This document shows, piece by piece, positions 1,978 through 61,616 of a DNA stretch of 64,000 nucleotides. A program made the position numbers and the translations under genes. The notes beneath the pieces are model-generated. The model was not told the origin of the DNA. It searched no databases and saw only the letters and a program-made list of their open reading frames with translations. Each line of letters starts with the position of its first letter. The stretch's first letter is position 1. The DNA lies in the NCBI RefSeq assembly GCF_001282685.1, contig NZ_LN875035.1:1158250-1222249 (forward strand), written 5' to 3'. This stretch comes from Niameybacter massiliensis. GTDB lineage: Bacteria; Bacillota; Clostridia; Lachnospirales; Cellulosilyticaceae.

Positions 1978-4900
1978 CTACATTTTTTCTTGAATTTGTT
2001 CTATAAGTTCATTCATAGCCTGCGCTGGGTCTTGATAATAATAAGATGCACTGATATATACCATTTCCCACCCTATACGTTCAAGTACGGCAAGGGTATT
2101 AATCTCCCCCTCTAGTTCGGAGCTTTCTTGATACTTCTCACTTTCGCATACAAGACGAATTTCTTTTGTATCTCCTTCTATAACAAGACCTGTTAAGGTT
2201 GCTCCTGAAGGTGTATGACTTCTTACTTTATATCCTCTATTTTCAAGTTCATTCTTGATCTCTTGTTCAAAAGGTACTAAAGGTTCTTCATAATGAATGG
2301 TATCTACTGCAATATCTTTACCACAGTTGTAACAATACTCAAAGAGCCCTCTTCTAATATCTTCTTCTTTTAAGTCTGTCTCAGGATCAAAGGAATGCAT
2401 AATAAACACTTGATCACGACCACGACTCATGGCAACATTGTAACGCTTTTTATATAAATTATCTGTTCCATAAGTCATCAGGCGAAGAGTATCTTTATCT
2501 CCTTTTGCATCTACCATAGAAATGAAGATAATATCTCTTTCATCCCCTTGGAATTGAGCTGGGCCACCACATAAAATGTTGCGCTTTGCATAAGCACGTG
2601 CTGTCATTTCCTTTTGTAATAAACTATCGATATAAGCCGCTTGTTTATCTCCTTTTAAGCTAATAACCCCAAAGGTTTTACCATTATACCTATCATCTGC
2701 TGCGCACTCTATAATCTTAGCAACAACTGCCTCAGCCTCTACTTGGTTCACTTGTCCTTCCTCTTTAGCATCTTGAATATAACAAGTTACAAGACTCGGC
2801 TTAAAGACTTTAGAGTTCTCGCGTAACGGTTCAATTTGGCCTTTATATGCTAGCTCATTGCTATATCCAATGATTTCTGGGACACATCTGAAGTGCTCCT
2901 TAAGCCTAACTGGCTGATAACCTGAAAGTTGAGCTAAGTCATAAATAGAAAAACGTCCAGAATACAGATAATGATTTGGTATATCTTCTAAATAAGTCTT
3001 AATCAAACGGCTAATCTCTTCTGTATTTTCTCCTACAGCAAGCGGACTTACTTGTTCATCATCTCCTACAATAAGGACTTGTTTCCCTAAGTAAAGTGCA
3101 ATAAGCGCTGTCACATCTGCTTGACTCGCTTCATCAATAATTACCACATCAAATTGATTTTCTCTTGGGTCAAAGTGCTCTGCTACTTTATCAAGTGGCA
3201 TAATCCATACTGGTACTGCCTTTTGACATTTTGGCATCAGCTTTCTAGCTTCTTGTTTAAGGAGCTCACGGTTTCTACCTTTACCTGCTCCCATCTTAAG
3301 AATCAACTGTTTCCACCCTTCTATAGCTTGAACTTCACTACGGTTGGCATCAAAGTCTACAAGTTTATGTAACCATGCCTTATCACATACAAGTTGTTTA
3401 GTATGATAACTTAAACGTCTTTCTACTTCTTTCATCTCTTCTTTGATGACACTGGCTGTACGCTCATGACGTTTTGCTAAAATATCTACCAATTGACGCC
3501 ATAGCCATGCTTCTTCTACCCCTGTTGGAATCACAACTTCTTCGCCTTCTTCTTTGAAAGCTTCTAAGTAGCTTGCCCAACCTGGTGCTGCAAAAGCAAG
3601 TTTATCTAAAAGTTCTGCTTTACGTTTTACTTGTGGTTTCTTATCTCTCGCTTCTAAAAAGGCTTCGTAATGCTTTGTGTAGTTCTCCAAGTCTTTTGTC
3701 TTAAGTGCTACTTTAAGCCCTGTAAGTATTGGACTTTCTTTTGTACATTCTAAACTTTGTAACCATTTTTCAAAAGCTTCTTTTTCTTTGGCTGCCTTTG
3801 TTTTTTCACATCTTGCAACTTGATATTCTAATACTTCTATCATTTCTTTAAGTACAGTATGGTAAAGGTAATGTATATGACCATGCTCAGACTTGGTATA
3901 GTCTTGTTGCTCCATAATACCATCTATATCCACGCCATAAGCCTCAAGCTGTTTTGCAATAGGCATCCACTTTTTCTTATACCAATCTAAATATTTTAAA
4001 ATCGCTTCACCGTACTTTTGACAAGTCATTTCAAATGGTGCTTCCATTTTATCTGTAGATTGTGCCCCAAGAGGTACCATCTGTCTTTCCCATCTTCCTT
4101 TAAGCGCTTCACGCTTTTCTTTCAGTACCATATAGTGAATAAGCACTTCAAAATCCTGCATCGTTTCTGGCTGCTTACCATTTACACGACTAGCTGCTAT
4201 AATCGTCTTCATTTGAGGGTTAAGGAGCAATGTCATTTTAGATAGTTTACCAGAGTTTTGAAGTTTTTGATTGATTTGACTATAAAGGTCTAGTGGTTTT
4301 AGCTTATCATCAATTGGTGAAATTTGTGGTTCTTGTGCCATCATTTCATCTGCATAAGTTAAGCTCAGCTGATAAAGCTCTTTAATTTGAACAGCTAACG
4401 TTTGCCACTGTTCTTTTGCCTTATCTTCTCTACCTGCTTCAAGTACTGCCATACACCAAGGATCCTCTAAATGGACTTGCTCCTCTATCAATTTAATATT
4501 TCCAATTAAATCTTTTAAAGTTTCTACTTCGTAAGTATGCTCATCTTCTTTAAAATAATTTAACCATTTAGGCGTTTTATACTTTTTGAAGTTTTTCTCT
4601 GCTTCAATACATTCTTTAAAGCCTTCTGGTGTAAACATACCTGTTGTATTAAGTTCTAAGCTACAGATTAAAGCATCTTCTTTTGTTAAGTTGTCTTTAA
4701 TACGATAGAGCTCTTGAACTTTATCTTCTCCAAGTGGCAGGATTGAACCATGTCGTACAGGTCCCATAAGCCACTCACAAGTTTCACGCTTTTCATCTAT
4801 GTATTTAGCTGCTTCTAAAGGCTTGTAAGTCTTTCCAGCTACTTTAATCGGTGTATACTCAATTAATTTATGATTTTTCAGTTCACCAATTAATTTATCT

Positions 4901-6105
4901 AATGTTCTAATACACGCCTCGCGATTTTTCTCATGCATGGCAACACGTCTAGAAAGTTCACTACGTTCTAATGTGGCACGAATTTGATGAATACCTTCTA
5001 ATGTATCTTCTAGTTCTTTTCTACTTTCTGCATCTTGCATTAAACTAATACAAAGTGTCTGTAATTCTGGAATAACATGATCTTTAACAACAGCTAGTGC
5101 CTTTTCGCTATAGCTTGTAACAAGAATACGTTTGCCTTCTGCTAAAAGGTGACCAATCATATTGGCTATCGTATGTGTTTTTCCTGTACCTGGAGGCCCT
5201 TGTACTAATACTGCTTCATTTCTTTCTAAGTGTTTAGCCACAAGAAGCTGTTCTTTATTGGCAGGTTTTGTAAAAAGGATTTTTTGGTCAATACCATTTA
5301 CATCTAAAGCTAACTTTTTCATTGTCTCTTTAGAATTTTGATTTTTACGTACCACATCTCCTTCACCTACAATATCCGCTATAAAAGGTGGAATTTGTTT
5401 GCGCTTTTCTAAGTCTTCTAATATACCATCTAATGCAACTTGGAAGCCTAATTGTTTTTTTCTAAGGAATAACGTTGGATAATTAGAGATAATCTCTACT
5501 CCAGTATCCCCAAAAAGTCTATTTCGTACTTCCGTACAAAAACCTTCTACTCCTTTAATATCTAAGGGACTAATAGGCTCCCCTTGATAAAGCTTAATAA
5601 GCTCCACAATACTATCTTCTTCTAAACCTTCTACTAGCCCTAAAAGACCTTGATAAAGTTCTGGCCCCTTATCTTCTAAAAAGAGTGCGAAAGTTTCTGT
5701 TTCTATATCAAATGTTACATAAACTGTTTGTAGAATCAGAGGATGATTAACCTCTTCCATTCCCTCCATTCGTACTTGTCCATCTCCATAGACAAGTTCT
5801 AAAAGTTCTGGTTCCTTCTTAAGCCTGCTATAGACATTATAGAAGCTATTGTAGACTTCTTCTACTTCCTTAGCTTTTTCTTCATCTGCTAGCATCTGTT
5901 CATTCGGCTTACGAATGATACAAATAGGCTGGTCTAAAACTTGCTGTTGCCATCTTTCTTCTACACAAGCATGTTTTGGCCATCCCCCAAGTTGTTCTAC
6001 CCATTCCCTGTCTTCTTCATTGGCAACCACAGGACTTTTCATACTGTGATAAGCTTTTAAGAAAGTATAGAGATTGGTTACTTTATCAATCTTATTGTTT
6101 GCCAT
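1978..6105 (-). CDS. Large SF1 helicase with C-terminal Vsr/MTES_1575-like nuclease domain
   Basis: This 1375-residue protein has an uncharacterised N-terminal region (1-270) and a split superfamily 1 helicase core. Walker A is VQGPPGTGKT at 301-310. A long, partly coiled-coil insertion (about 370-960) follows. The core resumes with the DEASQ box near 988, motif III GDDEQVSP, the EHFRC segment, and motif VI YNVAMSRGRDQ near 1222. The last 110 residues (FEQEIKNELENRGYKV...RLVCESEKY) look like the small restriction-endonuclease-like domain found at the end of many such helicases. Proteins with this architecture occur in anti-phage islands and as solitary genes. Here it is alone, with its own terminator, so a defence role is only a possibility. 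An RBS (AGAGGG) precedes the ATG. Confidence 0.8.
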   Translation of the reverse strand: MANNKIDKVTNLYTFLKAYHSMKSPVVANEEDREWVEQLGGWPKHACVEERWQQQVLDQPICIIRKPNEQMLADEEKAKEVEEVYNSFYNVYSRLKKEPELLELVYGDGQVRMEGMEEVNHPLILQTVYVTFDIETETFALFLEDKGPELYQGLLGLVEGLEEDSIVELIKLYQGEPISPLDIKGVEGFCTEVRNRLFGDTGVEIISNYPTLFLRKKQLGFQVALDGILEDLEKRKQIPPFIADIVGEGDVVRKNQNSKETMKKLALDVNGIDQKILFTKPANKEQLLVAKHLERNEAVLVQGPPGTGKTHTIANMIGHLLAEGKRILVTSYSEKALAVVKDHVIPELQTLCISLMQDAESRKELEDTLEGIHQIRATLERSELSRRVAMHEKNREACIRTLDKLIGELKNHKLIEYTPIKVAGKTYKPLEAAKYIDEKRETCEWLMGPVRHGSILPLGEDKVQELYRIKDNLTKEDALICSLELNTTGMFTPEGFKECIEAEKNFKKYKTPKWLNYFKEDEHTYEVETLKDLIGNIKLIEEQVHLEDPWCMAVLEAGREDKAKEQWQTLAVQIKELYQLSLTYADEMMAQEPQISPIDDKLKPLDLYSQINQKLQNSGKLSKMTLLLNPQMKTIIAASRVNGKQPETMQDFEVLIHYMVLKEKREALKGRWERQMVPLGAQSTDKMEAPFEMTCQKYGEAILKYLDWYKKKWMPIAKQLEAYGVDIDGIMEQQDYTKSEHGHIHYLYHTVLKEMIEVLEYQVARCEKTKAAKEKEAFEKWLQSLECTKESPILTGLKVALKTKDLENYTKHYEAFLEARDKKPQVKRKAELLDKLAFAAPGWASYLEAFKEEGEEVVIPTGVEEAWLWRQLVDILAKRHERTASVIKEEMKEVERRLSYHTKQLVCDKAWLHKLVDFDANRSEVQAIEGWKQLILKMGAGKGRNRELLKQEARKLMPKCQKAVPVWIMPLDKVAEHFDPRENQFDVVIIDEASQADVTALIALYLGKQVLIVGDDEQVSPLAVGENTEEISRLIKTYLEDIPNHYLYSGRFSIYDLAQLSGYQPVRLKEHFRCVPEIIGYSNELAYKGQIEPLRENSKVFKPSLVTCYIQDAKEEGQVNQVEAEAVVAKIIECAADDRYNGKTFGVISLKGDKQAAYIDSLLQKEMTARAYAKRNILCGGPAQFQGDERDIIFISMVDAKGDKDTLRLMTYGTDNLYKKRYNVAMSRGRDQVFIMHSFDPETDLKEEDIRRGLFEYCYNCGKDIAVDTIHYEEPLVPFEQEIKNELENRGYKVRSHTPSGATLTGLVIEGDTKEIRLVCESEKYQESSELEGEINTLAVLERIGWEMVYISASYYYQDPAQAMNELIEQIQEKM

Positions 6106-7122: not shown

Positions 7123-7822
7123 AAATAAATATTTTATGGAGTGAAAACTTAGTAGTTGAGGTAGACCGGTCCGCACTACGTATGTGCTCTCCCTTTCGCT
7201 TTTGCTCAAATGGACTAAGAATGTATAAACGCCTATTCAGTTAGAACGTGCGAAAACTTGCTAACGCTCAGACACTCGCACAAAAGCCTTCCTTCATATT
7301 CGTTAACACATTCTAAGCCCATTCTCAATAAAAGCTACATGGAGGTCACCCACGCATCACCGCCCTTTTCTACTCAGTTAGGTAAATTTTCACTTCCAGT
7401 GGACACACGGGAGAGGCGAAAGAAGAGCAAACGTCTCTTCTTTGGAGATAGAACTTTCAAGTGTTTGATAAGACTTCTTTGTAGTTTACTTTTAACCTTA
7501 GAATAATTAGGTGGCTTTTATATAAAGAGTGTTTAGATAATAAAGCCATGTAGTCTAGCTAGCCTCAGACGGAAAGGTTATCATGTGATGGGCTGTAAGG
7601 TGAGTTATTGTATGGAAACTTTCTCCACAGACTTTTTAGAGAGGCTTAGAGAATGGAATCAAACTGGTTTTAGGGAAATGTCTGAAGAAAAGTGAACTTC
7701 TTTTCTGAGTTTTGACCGTTAGTTTGATGGAATGAACCTAGCCTCTCTTAAAAGTCGAGGACTAGAAGTTGGAATACAATAAGCTTGCCTACATGTCCTC
7801 ACACTTAACCAAATATTTATTT
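7123..7822 (+). repeat. Structured dispersed element, copy A
   Basis: This 700-bp non-coding element is bounded by AAATAAATATTT (7123-7134) and AAATATTTATTT (7811-7822), which are inverted copies. The left half is shared with the copy at 45639. It contains the hairpin GTGCGA/TCGCAC (7248-7281) and a strongly conserved block at about 7334-7400. The right domain (7547-7795) is shared by all four copies. Relative to the copies at 22735 and 45639 it lacks about 125 bp in the middle. No continuous conserved protein is present. The element fills the gap between a prenyltransferase stop (7825) and a downstream gene (7090). Confidence 0.85.
7547..7795 (+). ncRNA. Candidate structured RNA domain in element copy A
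   Basis: Five nested pairings can be drawn: 7547-7553 with 7789-7795 (CATGTAG/CTACATG), 7605-7613 with 7774-7782 (TTATTGTAT/ATACAATAA), 7630-7646 with 7740-7756 (17 bp, one mismatch), 7658-7665 with 7721-7728 (ATCAAACT/AGTTTGAT), and the hairpin 7686-7692/7700-7706. The same architecture is present in the other three copies. Expression and transcribed strand are unknown; the helices would form on either strand apart from G-U pairs. Confidence 0.5.
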
Positions 7823-15417: not shown

Positions 15418-15474
15418 CAATTACTCTCAATATTCTTATGCTAAGGGTCTAACAATATACTGCCACTATATGTT

Positions 15475-15512
15475 TACCTTAGTTTTTTATACTGGGAGGT
15501 TCTCGAACCAGT
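15475..15512 (-). promoter_or_regulatory. preQ1 class I riboswitch aptamer
   Basis: The minus strand reads ACTGG, a loop TTCGAGAACCTC, CCAGT, then ATAAAAAACTAAGG. This is the preQ1-I layout: a five-base P1 stem, an A-rich tail, and pairing of AAGGT in the tail with ACC in the loop to close the pseudoknot. It controls the queK-qrtT-queL operon and fits the salvage product preQ1. Confidence 0.88.
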
Positions 15513-15542
15513 CCTAGAGATTTATTCTAGATTTACCTTGCT

Positions 15543-22715: not shown

Positions 22716-22750
22716 TAAGGGCAGTTAGTGCTACAAATAAATATTTGTTT

Positions 22751-23010
22751 AAGTGAGGGGGTGCTTATATTTAGTCTACTTACGTGAGTTGGCTAGGTGG
22801 ATTCTCCTCCACCTGCTACACTCCGCTTTCAGAGAAATGTAATTCATTCAAAAATAATAACGGTGTGAACTCGCTACGCTCAAACAGCACACCTAAAATC
22901 ATTATTTTTTTATTTCGAACATTTCTTATCTGAAAGCTACGTAGGCAGGTTCCGAAGAACGCACCTAGCCAGCTCACTGAATCAAGTTTACGAATATGCC
23001 TCCCTCACTT
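22751..23010. repeat. 260-bp imperfect palindrome inside copy B
   Basis: AAGTGAGGG (22751-22759) pairs with CCCTCACTT (23002-23010). GTGAGTTGGCTAGGTG (22784-22799) pairs with 22962-22977 over 16 bases with one G-U. CTTTCAG plus AGAAATGT pair with ACATTTCT plus CTGAAAG. The centre is closed by GGTGTG/CACACC (22862-22867/22888-22893). The arms would fold into one long cruciform or RNA hairpin. Confidence 0.85.
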
Positions 23011-23414
23011 TGTGGACTGCGCCGGCAGAGAGATTACTAAACTGCATGTAGCTTATATTCTAAATCCATCCTCGAAAAAAGCTCCATGGAGGTCACCCAC
23101 GCATCACCGCCCTCTTCTACTCAGTTAGGTAAGTTTTCACTTCTAGTGACACGCCCTGGAGAGGAAAGAAGAGAAAACATCTCTTCTTTGGAAAGAAAAC
23201 TTCCAAGTATTTGATAAGGTTTCTTTCTAGTTTGTTTCTGAGCTCAACCTATCCTAAAAGGTGAGCGTTAGCAAAGCTACTGTGAAGCCTTGCATGTCTC
23301 AATGTCTTTTGTTACTGAGTTAAGTAAGATACACTTTGTAGAATTAATAGTACTTTTGATCTAAACTCGGAAATGATTAGGCACTTTCACATGAAGGATG
23401 TTTAGAAAATGGAT

Positions 23415-23665
23415 CATGTAGTTTAGCTGTCTCTCTACCGGAAGGGTCTATAATGTGATGGGCTGTAAGGTCAGTTATTGTATGGAAACTTTCTCCGCAG
23501 ACTTTTTAGAGAGGCTTAGTGAGTAGAATCAAACTGGTTTTAGGGAAATGTTTGAAGAAAAGTGCACTTCTTTTCTGAGTTTTGACCGTTAGTTTGATGA
23601 AATGAACTTAGCCTCTCTTAAAAGGCGAGGACTAGAAGTTGGAATACAATAAGCTTGCCTACATG
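23415..23665 (+). ncRNA. Candidate structured RNA domain in element copy B
   Basis: The same nested helices as in copy A are present, closed by CATGTAG (23415-23421) and CTACATG (23659-23665). The apical hairpin AGAAAAG/CTTTTCT has a changed loop only. The outer part of the 17-bp helix carries one extra mismatch here. Confidence 0.5.
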
Positions 23666-23686
23666 CCCTCACACCTAACCAAATAT

Positions 23687-24193
23687 TTATTTCGCTAATA
23701 CGACTTGTGCAATATTAATAGCATGGTCTGAAATACGTTCCATATTACTAATGGTATCTATAAATACAATACCTGCTGTAGGATCACATGTATTCTGAAC
23801 TAAGCGTTTGATATGGGTAGAACGCATAGTTTTTTCCATATCATCTACTTGATCTTCTAATCCTAATGCTTTTTCCGCTAAACCAGAATCTCCTGATGCA
23901 TATGCTTTGATAGCAGATTCTAAACACTTCAATCCTGTCTGGGTAATCATGATAAGTTCTTTTTTTGCATCTTCTGTAAACGTAGAATCACTATCTATTA
24001 AATCTTGAGCAAGCTCTGCAATATTATCCGCATGATCTCCCACTCTTTCAATATCACTTATAATATGAAAAAGATTTGTAACACTTAAAGATTCCTCTTC
24101 TGAAAGGGAAACGTTACTTAGTTTAACTAAATATTGATTAATTCCTTTTTGTAATTCATTAATTTCTCTTTCTTTAGCAAAAACTTGTTCCAT
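23687..24193 (-). pseudogene. PhoU-domain C-terminal part of a frameshifted Na/Pi symporter
   Basis: These 168 residues form a PhoU-like helical bundle (for example FHIISDIERVGDHADNIAELAQDLI and ISNMERISDHAINIAQVVL) with the usual E/DxxxD metal-binding pattern. In NptA-type symporters this domain follows the transporter in a single protein. Here it is in the -1 frame relative to the upstream part. The junction is a run of six A on the coding strand (24204-24209), where seven would restore EKNADKMEQVFAKE. The ATG at 24193 has no good ribosome site, so it is probably not an independent gene. Its stop codon lies within the repeat end. Confidence 0.75.
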
Positions 24194-25329
24194 CTTATCA
24201 GCATTTTTTCAAATAAGGCTTGAATAGCTATTTTCACATTGTGTTGTGCAAGTTCACCCATATGCACAACTTCCTTAATGGCATTTTCTAAGGCAAATGC
24301 AGGAGTTTCAAACATACGTTCATCTAAATGTTGTAATTCTCCTGGCTTAGCTTCTCCTTTTCCTTTAACAAGATGTTCTGCAAGATATACAAGTGTACCT
24401 GCAAATGGGAAAAGTACAATAGTATTTACTACGTTAAAGATAGTATGAACAACACTGATTTCTGTTACCGTAATAATACGGTTCCCAAGACCTGGAACAA
24501 CAAATTTAAATAGTACAACAGCAATAATACCAAAGATAACAGAGCCTAAAAAATTGAAAATAAAGTGGATAGCTGCTGCTCTTTTTGCATTTAAGGTTGC
24601 ACCTATACTAGATAAAATAGCTGTAATACATGTTCCTATATTTTGACCAAGTATAATATAAATAGCTGAACTCCAAGGTACAAGACCTGCTAAAGCCAAT
24701 GCCTGTAAAATACCTACTGAAGCTGATGAACTTTGAATAATTGCTGTAACACCAGCACCTACTAAAATACCTAAAATAGGGTTATGTCCAATGACAACAA
24801 ACATGTTCTTGACTTCTTCTAGCTCACGAAGTGGTTTAGCCGCAGCACTCATAGAATCTAAACCTAAAAATAGTGCCCCAAAACCAAATAGTATTTCTCC
24901 TATATGTTTAATTTTATCTTCTCTTGCAAACATCAGAAGTCCTACACCTATAGCAATGCATAGTGGTGCAATTACCGATGGTTTTAAGAACTTTGTCCAT
25001 TCTCCTAATGAAACGATCCATGCTGTAATTGTTGTTCCTATATTCGCTCCCATAATAACGCCTACAGCTTGTTTTAGAGACATAAGACCTGCATTAACAA
25101 ATCCAACAACCATAACTGTTGTAGCTGATGAACTTTGAATTAGTGCTGTTACTCCAGCGCCTACTAATACGCCTAAGAAGCGGTTACTTGTTAAAATACT
25201 TAATAACTTTTTCATTTTAGGCCCAGCAGCTTTTTGTAACCCCTCTCCCATATACTCCATACCAAAGAGAAATAGGCCCAAACCGCCTATAAAGGTCAAT
25301 CCCACATCTAGCCAATCAACTTGATTCAT
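24127..25329 (-). CDS. Na/Pi cotransporter family protein, frameshifted before its PhoU domain
   Basis: The 400-residue product carries two inverted Na/Pi symporter repeats with the QSSSATT and QSSSAS motifs (GVTALIQSSSATTVMVVGF; GVTAIIQSSSASVGILQAL) and about nine membrane helices. Homologues continue into a cytosolic PhoU domain. Here the frame shifts at the A6 run near 24204-24209, and the last 25 or so residues are out-of-frame sequence. The result could be a real pseudogene, a sequencing error, or slippage at the A-tract. If repaired, the gene would run from 25329 to 23687 (about 550 residues) and import phosphate with sodium. Confidence 0.85.
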   Translation of the reverse strand: MNQVDWLDVGLTFIGGLGLFLFGMEYMGEGLQKAAGPKMKKLLSILTSNRFLGVLVGAGVTALIQSSSATTVMVVGFVNAGLMSLKQAVGVIMGANIGTTITAWIVSLGEWTKFLKPSVIAPLCIAIGVGLLMFAREDKIKHIGEILFGFGALFLGLDSMSAAAKPLRELEEVKNMFVVIGHNPILGILVGAGVTAIIQSSSASVGILQALALAGLVPWSSAIYIILGQNIGTCITAILSSIGATLNAKRAAAIHFIFNFLGSVIFGIIAVVLFKFVVPGLGNRIITVTEISVVHTIFNVVNTIVLFPFAGTLVYLAEHLVKGKGEAKPGELQHLDERMFETPAFALENAIKEVVHMGELAQHNVKIAIQALFEKMLIRWNKFLLKKEKLMNYKKELINI

Positions 25330-36715: not shown

Positions 36716-37045
36716 GTGTAATCCTAAGCTTAGAAATGATGAGGTAGATTTTAGATTATCAATCCATGTAGTCTAGCTCTCTTTCTCTCCACTGAAAAGG
36801 TCTATAATGTGATGGGCTGTAAGGTGAGTTATTGTATGGAAACTTTCTCCACAGACTTTTTAGAGAGGCTTAGTGAGTAGAATCAAACTGGTTTTAGGAA
36901 AATGTTTGAAGAAAAGTGAACTTCTTTTCTGAGTTTTGACCGTTAGTTTGATGAAGTGAACTTAGCCTCTCTTAAAAGACGAGGACTAGAAGTTGGAATA
37001 CAATAAGCTTGCCTACATGCCCTCACACCTAAACAAATATTTATT
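36716..37045 (+). repeat. Structured dispersed element, copy C (left-truncated)
   Basis: Only about 330 bp are present: a poorly matching stretch from about 36716, then the complete right domain and the AT-rich right end AAATATTTATT (37035-37045). The left half and left AT-rich end are missing, and the left boundary is approximate. It lies between the gltS stop and the sulfatase terminator. Confidence 0.8.
36765..37019 (+). ncRNA. Candidate structured RNA domain in element copy C
   Basis: It is closed by CATGTAG (36765-36771) and CTACATG (37013-37019). The TTATTGTAT/ATACAATAA, 17-bp, ATCAAACT/AGTTTGAT and AGAAAAG/CTTTTCT pairings are all kept, although the rest of the element is lost. Confidence 0.5.
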
Positions 37046-45638: not shown

Positions 45639-46459
45639 AATAAATATTTTATGGAGTGAAAACTTAGTAGTTGAGGTAGACCGGTCGGCACTACGTATGT
45701 GCTCTCCCTTTCGCTTTTGCTCAAATGGACTAAGAATGTGTAAACTCCTATTCAGTCAGAACGTGCGAAAACTCACTAATGCTCAGACACTCGCATAAAA
45801 GCCTTCCTTCATATTCGTTAACACATTCTAAGCCCATTCTCAATAAAAGCTACATGGAGGTCACCCACGCATCACCACCCTTTTCTACTCAGTTAGGTAA
45901 GTTTTCACTTCCAGTAGTTCACCGTGGTGAAGAGATAGGAGTAAATGTTTCTTCTTTCAGGGCAAAACCTTCAAGTGTTTGATAAGGCTCCTTCGTCGTT
46001 TATTCCTGATCTCAGCCTATCTTAAAAGGTGAGCGTTAGCAAAGCTACTGTGAAGCCTTTCAGGTTTCAATGTCTTTTGCTACTGAATTAAGTAAGATTC
46101 GCTTTGTAGAATTGATAGTACTTTTGATCTGAACTCGGAAATGATTAGGCATTTTCACATGAAAGATGTTTAGAAAATGGATCATGTAGTGTAGCTGTCT
46201 CTCTACTGGAAAGGCTATGATGTAATGGGCTGTAAGGTAAGTTATTGTATGGAAACTTTCTCCACAGACTTTTTAGAGAGGCTTAGAGAATGGAATCAAA
46301 CTGGTTTTAGGGAAATGTCTGAAGAAAAGTGAACTTTTTTCTGAGTTTTGACCGTTAGTTTGATGGAATGAACTTAGTCTCTCTTAAAAGTCGAGGACTA
46401 GAAGTTGGAATACAATAAGCTTGCCTACATGTCCTCACACTTAACCAAATATTTATTTA
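45639..46459 (+). repeat. Structured dispersed element, copy D
   Basis: This 821-bp copy is bounded by AATAAATATTTT (from 45639) and AAATATTTATTT (46448-46459). Its left half matches copy A, and its middle (about 45915-46180) matches copy B. GGAGTGAAAACTTA near the left end can pair with TAAGTTTTCACTTCC at about 45898-45912. The hairpin GTGCGA/TCGCAT (45763-45796) is present. The right end touches the terminator of the next gene. Confidence 0.85.
46183..46431 (+). ncRNA. Candidate structured RNA domain in element copy D
   Basis: The nested helices of copy A recur, closed by CATGTAG (46183-46189) and CTACATG (46425-46431). Two differences keep pairing: AGCCTCTCT becomes AGTCTCTCT (G-C to G-U in the long helix), and loss of one base in the apical hairpin still leaves AGAAAA/TTTTCT. 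Confidence 0.5.
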
Positions 46460-60314: not shown

Positions 60315-60428
60315 ATTAATTCCTCCAGTAAATCATTCTAGTCTTATTTTGCCTGGGTGTATAATATGATATCTAAGTTAAGAATTTATAGGGATTAGGT
60401 TAAACTTATGTTAAACACAAATTAAAGT

Positions 60429-61616
60429 TTAGTCATCTTCTTCATTATCATCGTCCTCGTCATCACCTTCTTCATTGCCATTATCTTTGTCCTTATCTTT
60501 ATCATTTCCCCCTATTTCATCATCTTCTTTATCTTTTATTTCATTTTCTTTATCATCATCTTCTTTGTCTTTATCTTTGTCTTTATCTTTTATTTCATCT
60601 TTCTTATCATCATCTTCTTTATCTTTGTCTTTTATTTCATCTTTCTTATCATCATCTTCTTTATCTTTGTCCTTTATTTCATCTTCCTTATCATCATCTT
60701 CTTTATCTTTATCTTTATCTTTATCTTTATCTTTATCCTTGTCTTTATCCTTGTCTTTATTCTGATTATTTATCTTATCTTTTATGTTCGTACTTGCTCC
60801 ATTACCTAAATGATTAAGATTATTCATTGCATCAACTACATCATCTTTTTCTATATCATCATCTTCTTCTACATCATCTCTCTCATCATCCCAGTCATCA
60901 GTCTGACTCTCCTCATCCATCTCTTCAATGTACTGGATTAGACTTGGTATATCCATATTTCTAAAATCAACATCTTCTGATTTTTCCTCTAACAAAATAC
61001 CTGCGCTATATCGCCCTAGACTTATTGCGTCCTTTTGTGAAAGTGTATACACTTGTTTATCACTAGGCAAGTAAACAATATGAGCATTTTTAAAGCTTTC
61101 TTCCATATAGATTGAAAGAAGTCCACCTAGATCAAGTGAGTTGCCTTTTAAGTCTGCATAGCTTACAAGAATAAAGTCTTCTACTGATTTAAACCCTTTA
61201 CGTTCCAACTCCTCACTTAATGTATTAAGTGCACGCTCTAAAGGCTGTCCCTTTAACCCTTTTAATTCTAACTCCATACTATCTTGATTTTTATCAATGA
61301 TTTTCTTAACTACTCCTTGTTTATTAATTAAAAGCTCAATACTTGGATTGATATCCAACGACACAACTGCAACTGGAACCTGAATGGTATAAAAAATAGG
61401 AAGGAGTACAAGAAGAAAAGCTGCTGCCAATGCGACTAATGTACTTGGCTTACAAATACGTGGAGATGTATAAGTAATAATATCTTCATCTATAAAAAAG
61501 ATTCTTTGTCCAACCTGCATATCTTCTTTTAATTGAATACGATGGAATTGCCCTCCCTTTTCCATAACAACCGCATAGGATGAGGAAATAGACATAATAA
61601 CACCTTTTTTTAACAT
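60429..61616 (-). CDS. rsgI: RsgI-type anti-sigma factor with long charged repeat tail
   Basis: This 395-residue membrane protein has an N-terminal RsgI domain that binds SigI (about 8-50) and one membrane helix (about 57-80). An extracellular domain begins VVSLDINPSIELLI, where RsgI proteins self-cleave between Asn90 and Pro91. From about residue 275 to the end the sequence is Lys/Asp/Glu repeats with no carbohydrate-binding module or glycosidase domain. It starts seven bases after sigI. The start may be the ATG at 61616 or that at 61595. Polysaccharide sensing by the acidic tail is unproven; it may be a wall-spanning spacer. Confidence 0.88.
   Translation of the reverse strand: MLKKGVIMSISSSYAVVMEKGGQFHRIQLKEDMQVGQRIFFIDEDIITYTSPRICKPSTLVALAAAFLLVLLPIFYTIQVPVAVVSLDINPSIELLINKQGVVKKIIDKNQDSMELELKGLKGQPLERALNTLSEELERKGFKSVEDFILVSYADLKGNSLDLGGLLSIYMEESFKNAHIVYLPSDKQVYTLSQKDAISLGRYSAGILLEEKSEDVDFRNMDIPSLIQYIEEMDEESQTDDWDDERDDVEEDDDIEKDDVVDAMNNLNHLGNGASTNIKDKINNQNKDKDKDKDKDKDKDKDKDKEDDDKEDEIKDKDKEDDDKKDEIKDKDKEDDDKKDEIKDKDKDKDKEDDDKENEIKDKEDDEIGGNDKDKDKDNGNEEGDDEDDDNEEDD
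60530..60760 (-). repeat. In-frame 42-bp tandem repeats in rsgI
   Basis: Units encode DKDKEDDDKKDEIK with small variations, plus extra DK dipeptides that lengthen individual units. The codon pattern (GAT AAA GAC) is nearly pure purine on the coding strand, so copy number is likely to vary by slippage. Confidence 0.85.

Follow-up and report, generated by a model that had tools for sequence, protein, structure and literature searches.

Inverted pairs of large covarying hairpins in an interspersed non-coding element of Niameybacter massiliensis

Excerpts of the literature describe REPINs (repetitive extragenic palindromic, or REP, doublets forming hairpins) as inverted palindrome doublets that are extragenic and non-autonomous and are predicted to fold in single-stranded DNA or mRNA; they are thought to move as single strands (PMC3116915). 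Further excerpts give a size of 20–40 bp for the REP palindrome (PMC3733652) and a tag, GT[AG]G, at its foot (PMC6006769). In this work, we analyzed 64,000 nt of the Niameybacter massiliensis genome (NCBI RefSeq assembly GCF_001282685.1, contig NZ_LN875035.1, positions 1,158,250–1,222,249 of the forward strand; hereafter the window), in which an initial annotation had marked a folded domain present in four copies, A to D. We found that this domain is one of two inverted, multi-bulged hairpins of ~215 nt that belong to a non-coding interspersed element spread in this genome.

Two inverted hairpins in an interspersed element

With copy A as the blastn query, 44 matches were obtained in the 4.57-Mb genome, which merged into 29 places. 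Both ends were located in 17 copies of 619–956 bp (size class 0.62–0.96 kb). Variants aside, these start with AATAAATATTT and finish with AAATATTTATT, and their terminal inverted repeats are AT-rich. The three complete copies of the window carry terminal inverted repeats (B, 27 nt, 85%; A, 26 nt, 81%; D, 20 nt, 80%), and those of the related genome G001 are longer, as judged by eye. A search of this genome with the right end, allowing up to three mismatches, gave 22 matches, all within copies of this element. No open reading frame (ORF) of 100 amino acids exists within copies A, B, or D, and protein coding of the conserved core, in a frame of 27 codons, was rejected after TAG was seen by eye to interrupt that frame in B, C, and locus L004. 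Two pairs of copies are 98–99% identical along alignments that span the element (to within 7 nt of its ends), and their flanks are not shared; thus, the element has been mobile. Divergence per site is 0.025–0.12 in the hairpins and end stretches, compared to 0.17–0.35 in the spacer, where the alignment is gappy.

Two covariance models were used, namely, R1 for the right hairpin and a second model, R2. The latter found seven hairpins in the window (four on the plus and three on the minus strand), all with E < 1e-14, and one further match at chance level (E 0.38). Copy A (7124–7821, plus strand; ends AATAAATATTT...AAATATTTATT; inverted repeat I3) is complete and has a type 1 left half, with an inverted left hairpin at 7183–7351 on the minus strand (69.2 bits, E 3.6e-15) and a right hairpin that, including its base helix, occupies 7585–7802 on the plus strand (R2 core 7601–7786, E 3.4e-38). 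Copy B (22736–23691, plus strand) is complete with a type 2 left half; its left hairpin lies at 22796–22966 on the minus strand (122.2 bits, E 2.5e-28), its right hairpin at 23455–23672 on the plus strand (core 23471–23656, E 9e-39), and its right end overlaps the stop codon of a PhoU-like ORF (23687–24193, minus strand). Copy D (45639–46457, plus strand), with both ends located, again has a type 1 left half and carries hairpins at 45698–45866 (minus; 70.5 bits, E 1.6e-15) and 46222–46438 (plus; core 46238–46422, E 5.4e-39). The left part of copy C (~36750–37045, plus strand) is missing, the left limit being the approximate start of the blastn match; no left hairpin was found in it, and its right hairpin lies at 36809–37026 on the plus strand (core 36825–37010, E 2.8e-38).

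The domain that the initial annotation had placed at 7547–7795 is therefore real as a fold, but the unit to which it belongs is larger, being the element at 7124–7821 with its second, inverted hairpin at 7183–7351. The opposition drawn there between structure and plain DNA repetition does not stand, because the hairpin sits, as one of an inverted pair, within a mobile non-coding element that has terminal inverted repeats. The left half of the element is the same hairpin in inverted order, and it provides a partner for 18 of the 23 right hairpins in this genome. Copies without the left part are C, L020, L046, and L049, and those with a left hairpin only are L024, L026, L070, and L087. Four distant hairpin copies also occur on contig C10 of this genome, at positions 400160, 184440, 331673, and 443403 (L122, L123, L124, and L126); the one at 331673 sits behind a tandem array of ~0.2-kb units.

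Covariation in this genome and its relatives

All four copies were found where they had been annotated (7547–7795, 23415–23665, 36765–37019, and 46183–46431), each bounded by CATGTAG/CTACATG. The nested helices are present in all of them, namely, TTATTGTAT/ATACAATAA (7605, 7774), ATCAAACT/AGTTTGAT (7658, 7721), and a long helix with its 5′ arm starting at 7630. As described, a single internal mismatch interrupts this long helix in A, D carries one G.U in it, and B and C have a further mismatch close to its outer end. The statement that copy B alters only the hairpin loop was incorrect, as B and A also differ at several other positions of the domain. The 7-bp outer stem exists in copies A to D but is not a conserved one: CATGTAG is exact in only eight of 23 genomic copies, has one mismatch in four, and is absent in 11. 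The 5′ arm of a longer base helix, GTGATGGGC-TGTA-AGG / CCT-ACA-TGCCC-TCAC, is kept in all 23 copies (with up to three edits), such that the conserved unit in copy A spans ~7585–7802. This arm pairs with CCTACATGCCCTCAC and so takes the same CTACATG as the 7-bp stem; the two helices compete.

On each strand, the fold of the 253-nt domain is better than those of 200 out of 200 shuffled sequences (z −4.1 on the plus and −4.8 on the minus strand). Copies A to D are too alike to prove much by themselves; judged by sequence comparison, the proof lies in the diverged copies and in other genera. Within this genome, two-sided pair changes exceed those in shuffles for both the right and the type 1 left hairpins. 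Among 23 aligned right-hairpin cores, 98.5% of the cells are paired, and five of 59 pairs have two-sided changes (seven cells, compared to a shuffled mean of 1.2; none of 500 shuffles as high). Among ten type 1 left hairpins, such changes affect nine of 33 pairs (ten cells, compared to 2.0 in shuffles; again 0/500). By eye, the clearest ones are carried by the diverged copies L027 and L028. Pairing has also been lost: a change from CCTCTCT to CCTGTCT in ten of the 23 copies leaves G facing G in the long helix. One early analysis was conducted without L024, L026, and L028, in which the right hairpin is missing or unrecognized, and alignment A3 does not include L087, then not yet known, or L005, excluded for a 19-nt insertion in the apical loop of its type 1 left hairpin. 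In G008 and G015, some copies have the apical loop lengthened by varied stems.

Relatives of the hairpin were found by shape. In a blastn search among 96 genomes, this genome alone matched, and R1 had matches in six of 392 genomes of the order, all from the same family; looser filters gave matches in seven of ten chosen genomes, including 34 in G001, many of which lie at contig ends like assembly-breaking repeats. With R2, ten of 24 genomes of the family had matches, ranging from 2 to 51 each (51 in this genome, 47 in G002, 47 in G008, 35 in G001, 27 in G015, 21 in G016, 14 in G012, 8 in G018, 3 in G021, and 2 in G006). In a sample of the phylum, R2 matched eight of 398 genomes, including this one; the seven others had weaker matches (best E 3e-11 to 1e-4), with at least two matches in five of them. 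The arrangement of a minus-strand hairpin followed by a plus-strand hairpin was also observed in G001, in four pairs in G002, and in two pairs in G420, which is outside of the family. Exact-pattern scans of plasmids and phages gave no match, and those of genome and viral contigs gave one each, both of which are protein-coding by eye and were judged to be chance; a second pattern had no match in the viral contigs.

When the relatives are aligned, the stems differ almost completely, and the motifs of the internal loops are common to them. The motifs kept are CUUAGNGAA.../...GAACUUAG and UUUUAG.../...CGUU, together with an apical motif, UGUYUGAGCGNAGCGAGUU, in most members. Across 55 aligned hairpins, two-sided changes were found in 57 of 61 pairs (949 cells; shuffles, 261 ± 15). 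Paired cells make up 94.3%, compared to 40–49% when the partner is slid by one to three columns. For 20 hairpins from outside of the family, the corresponding values are 54 of 59 pairs, 404 cells compared to 127, and 90.3% compared to 37–44%. The fragment L143:562–695 was left out of one alignment of relatives only. Both of these cross-genome alignments were fitted to the model structure and are hence biased toward it. Despite this bias, conservation of the fold can hardly be doubted in view of the controls with slid partners and of the variety of pair types, which reaches six per pair. Selection on the folded structure is strongly supported by these comparisons. On the same comparisons, the hairpin is an old family in which stems change their letters and pairing stays.

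The distribution of hairpins was also informative in two respects. The genome of G002 is complete (4,714,237 bp), and its first ORF reads like dnaA by eye. On its contig C1, the 30 hairpins listed, of 47, are all located at 0.23–0.75 or 3.19–4.49 Mb, and none are in the half around the presumed terminus. The probability of such clustering is ~3e-10 if hairpins were even and independent, with limits that were set after the fact and with some of the hairpins paired. Additionally, at the loci L171/L197 and L176/L200 (G008 compared to G015/G012), two hairpins occupy corresponding sites in two species with flanks that are 80–86% identical, indicating that insertions can outlast speciation.

Folded strand, gene context, and possible mobilization

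A folded strand tolerates G.T and tolerates A.C less, and its complement shows the reverse. We tallied these pair types over Watson-Crick-only consensus structures in five groups, reading each hairpin in its own direction; these tallies count types rather than independent events. The G.T to A.C ratios were 14:8 in G002, 13:8 in G008/G012/G015, 24:11 in the right hairpins of this genome, 8:3 in its type 2 left hairpins, and 20:8 in its type 1 left hairpins, such that the five groups together have 79:38 (p 1.9e-4). Excluded were two of 19 G002 hairpins off the main cluster and, beforehand, the G008 hairpins h, l, and m and the left hairpin of L005. Transitions that make G.T, compared to others, number 111:77 at paired columns and 51:99 at unpaired columns (p 6e-6), and this contrast has p values of 8e-5, 0.04, and 0.01 in the three sets from this genome. 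In the 55-hairpin alignment, 109 G.T cells and 51 A.C cells were counted over 58 pairs (sign test by pair, p 0.014), with three pairs of at least 30% G.T excluded. A test of whole elements, from which L024 and L026 were dropped, gave no bias, as the left hairpin was read on the wrong strand there; in its own orientation, the left hairpin shares the bias of the right one. Left and right hairpins occupy opposite genomic strands and agree in polarity when each is read in its own direction; a mutational strand bias therefore does not account for the signal. It is well supported by these tallies that the fold constrains the outward-reading strand of each hairpin, as seen from the element.

The explanation that we favor, and to which we give about an even chance of being correct, is that the selected fold lies within a non-autonomous mobile DNA element with folded ends that would be recognized in the manner of REPINs. 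The element would lack autonomy, and a protein acting in trans would move or maintain it. This protein would recognize both folded ends in single-stranded form, as for REPINs with their inverted palindrome doublets. The element would then settle at the 3′ ends of genes, where harm is small. Among 21 insertions in this genome examined with mechanically called ORFs, the left gene points to the element in 17 and the right gene in 14, and none lie between divergent genes. The end of the element overlaps a stop codon by 2–9 nt in seven cases (L003, L004, L010, L013, L019, L023, and the fragment L046); a larger overlap at L009 is doubtful.

Several observations weigh against this explanation. By eye, a consistent target-site duplication was not seen in the 17 copies with both ends, for which no empty site is available for comparison. 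Five of the 23 copies have no recognizable left hairpin, and L026 has kept both ends but, by eye, not the right hairpin, suggesting that the hairpin pair is not strictly required for persistence. In the right hairpins of this genome, further pair types are not above those in shuffles (80 of 500 as high). Taken alone, the contrast between paired and unpaired columns is not significant in G002 (p 0.31) or G008/G012/G015 (p 0.53), and the difference was weak when single mismatches were counted without an alignment, in each of 42 folds separately (G.T 34 and A.C 27 on the plus strand; 25 and 29 on the minus strand). On the side of the enzyme, no reverse transcriptase (PF00078) match was found in this assembly, which is 98% complete; the Y1 transposase domain has no match in G001, where near-identical copies are most numerous; and the stretches around 13 Y1 matches contain no hairpin except at one decayed IS200-like remnant in G016. 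Finally, RNA is favored by a pair that is G.U throughout (55 of 55 sequences) and by a second one that is U.G in 34 of 50.

These wobble pairs, together with the excess of G.T over A.C on the outward strand and the location of the elements just downstream of genes, with 17 of 21 left genes directed toward the element and no divergent genes, speak for the hairpin acting as RNA. The RNA would arise by transcription outward from the element or by read-through of the far-side gene; once folded, it would bind a protein or have a role at mRNA 3′ ends, and the element would merely spread the hairpin. However, for 26 of 36 hairpins (32 from relatives and the four distant copies of this genome), including eight out of eight in G016, and for 10 of 16 further hairpins of G002, the gene at the 3′ side would transcribe the opposite strand. 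An outward RNA would require either such read-through or a spacer-located promoter. No T-run terminator or constant promoter adjoining the hairpins was seen by eye in the junction list of 42 hairpins. We consider this RNA explanation tenable but less probable than an even chance. The initial annotation had proposed selection on RNA structure; selection on the fold is upheld, and RNA is not established, as a folded single strand of DNA would also give the wobble bias and the adjacent gene mostly transcribes the opposite strand. A wobble excess of ~2:1 is lower than we would expect for an RNA, and the GCGNAGC at the apex is the GNA-loop minihairpin of DNA, known to be very stable. These two features are a mild pointer to single-stranded DNA, and we lean slightly toward DNA as the folded strand.

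A host enzyme of the RAYT/TnpA-Y1 type that moves the doublets, with the element being an oversized REPIN or bacterial interspersed mosaic element (BIME), would account for the inverted order and the signal on the folded strand, and Y1 domain matches do occur in four of the five genomes tested, one of them in this genome. We regard this possibility as improbable, since G001 has no such match, no hairpin lies by the Y1 genes of this genome, G002, or G008, the foot is UAGC/GCGG in many copies rather than the GT[AG]G tag, and the unit is several times the size of a REP. The remnant in G016 (L211 2284–4231, contig C16) is a decayed IS200-like transposase located between a minus and a plus hairpin; nothing alike was found at the other Y1 matches, and Y1/IS200 is judged improbable as the mobilizer. 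Copies without the left part prompted us to consider a self-splicing intron or retro-movement, which was rejected in light of no Rfam intron match, no reverse transcriptase, and the existence of left-only copies. In all, no mobilizing enzyme was found among reverse transcriptases in this genome and Y1 domains in five genomes, DDE transposases not having been searched for.

If the element were an ordinary miniature inverted-repeat transposable element (MITE), a DDE transposase would move it by acting on the terminal inverted repeats, and the palindromes would be incidental, kept matched by template switching during replication. The repeats of 20–27 nt in this genome and the longer ones in G001 fit such an element, and quasi-palindrome correction can mimic two-sided changes. 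Template switching is not expected, however, to conserve unpaired loop motifs across genera, to make hairpin stretches diverge less than spacers, or to produce a wobble bias on one strand that tracks hairpin orientation. This reading is already disfavored, and we consider it highly improbable. A broader possibility is a new class of mobile non-coding system. Its active part would be two outward-reading folded nucleic acids of ~215 nt, one per end of a gene-free element, with a shape conserved across Bacillota families and up to ~50 matches per genome. The bound RNA or single-stranded DNA would guide an enzyme, encoded by the host or by the element, to the ends, and the flank that it reads into might be used for this. 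We propose this class tentatively and consider it rather unlikely.

Elsewhere in the window, a PreQ1 riboswitch aptamer was found at 15473–15517 on the minus strand (51.6 bits). A 1375-amino-acid ORF (1978–6105, minus strand) has AAA/helicase domains and a C-terminal REase_MTES_1575 domain and is possibly a defense protein. A dense repeat array with steps of 12–30 nt (60427–60794) overlaps the ORF at 60429–61616 (minus strand). Also, a 103-nt direct repeat (24682–24784 and 25084–25186; 73% identical) is located within the ORF of a Na/Pi symporter (24127–25329, minus strand).

Comparison with known systems

As in structured RNAs of Rfam, the hairpin has a covarying multi-loop fold that can be found by a covariance model. 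In the window, no Rfam 15 family other than the PreQ1 riboswitch reached its gathering score, and eight loci of relatives gave only weak matches to microRNAs or unrelated families (E ≥ 0.2), plus a cspA element outside of the hairpins. As far as titles and the beginnings of abstracts show, the literature found does not describe this hairpin, and the apical motif led only to unrelated titles. A large covarying structure that matched no Rfam family belongs to a mobile element, comes in inverted pairs, and was found by shape where blastn is blind. With the near-identical copies of G001 and the complete genome of G002, which has tens of matches, the identity of the folded strand, its binding partner, and the need of the fold for movement become testable. 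The answers bear on why structured repeats near gene 3′ ends are retained in bacterial genomes.

Bridge RNAs of IS110, as described in excerpts, resemble the hairpin in being structured, looped, non-coding sequences of a mobile element (PMC11208160, PMC11208158). Their loops are described there as programmable (PMC11208158), whereas the loops here are constant and the stems variable. No recombinase was found with the element, and none was searched for. MITEs are likewise short, interspersed, and non-coding with terminal inverted repeats; the element differs from them in the lack of a consistent target-site duplication, in its covarying and strand-polar internal hairpins, and in that no autonomous partner was found among the 22 right-end matches in this genome. 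IS200/IS605 elements are not known to have terminal inverted repeats and carry small hairpins, in contrast to the large hairpin present at both ends here in inverted order. Their TnpA-Y1 recognizes subterminal hairpins in single-stranded DNA (PMC6006769), a likeness to the mode of recognition proposed above.

REPINs and BIMEs offer a parallel in plan, from which the hairpin departs in two defining features of REPs, size and foot tag. The hairpin of ~215 nt has several conserved internal loops, in contrast to the 20–40 bp given for REPs in an excerpt (PMC3733652), and its foot is UAGC...GCGG in many of the 42 hairpins examined, not the excerpted REP tag GT[AG]G (PMC6006769). Among the 13 Y1 matches of the genomes tested, no RAYT gene was found beside the hairpins, the IS200-like remnant in G016 aside. 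The likeness lies in the architecture: a spacer flanked by palindromes of opposite orientation, observed in 18 of the 23 copies of this genome and as pairs in G001, G002, and G420, within an extragenic and presumably non-autonomous element that is present in many copies per genome.
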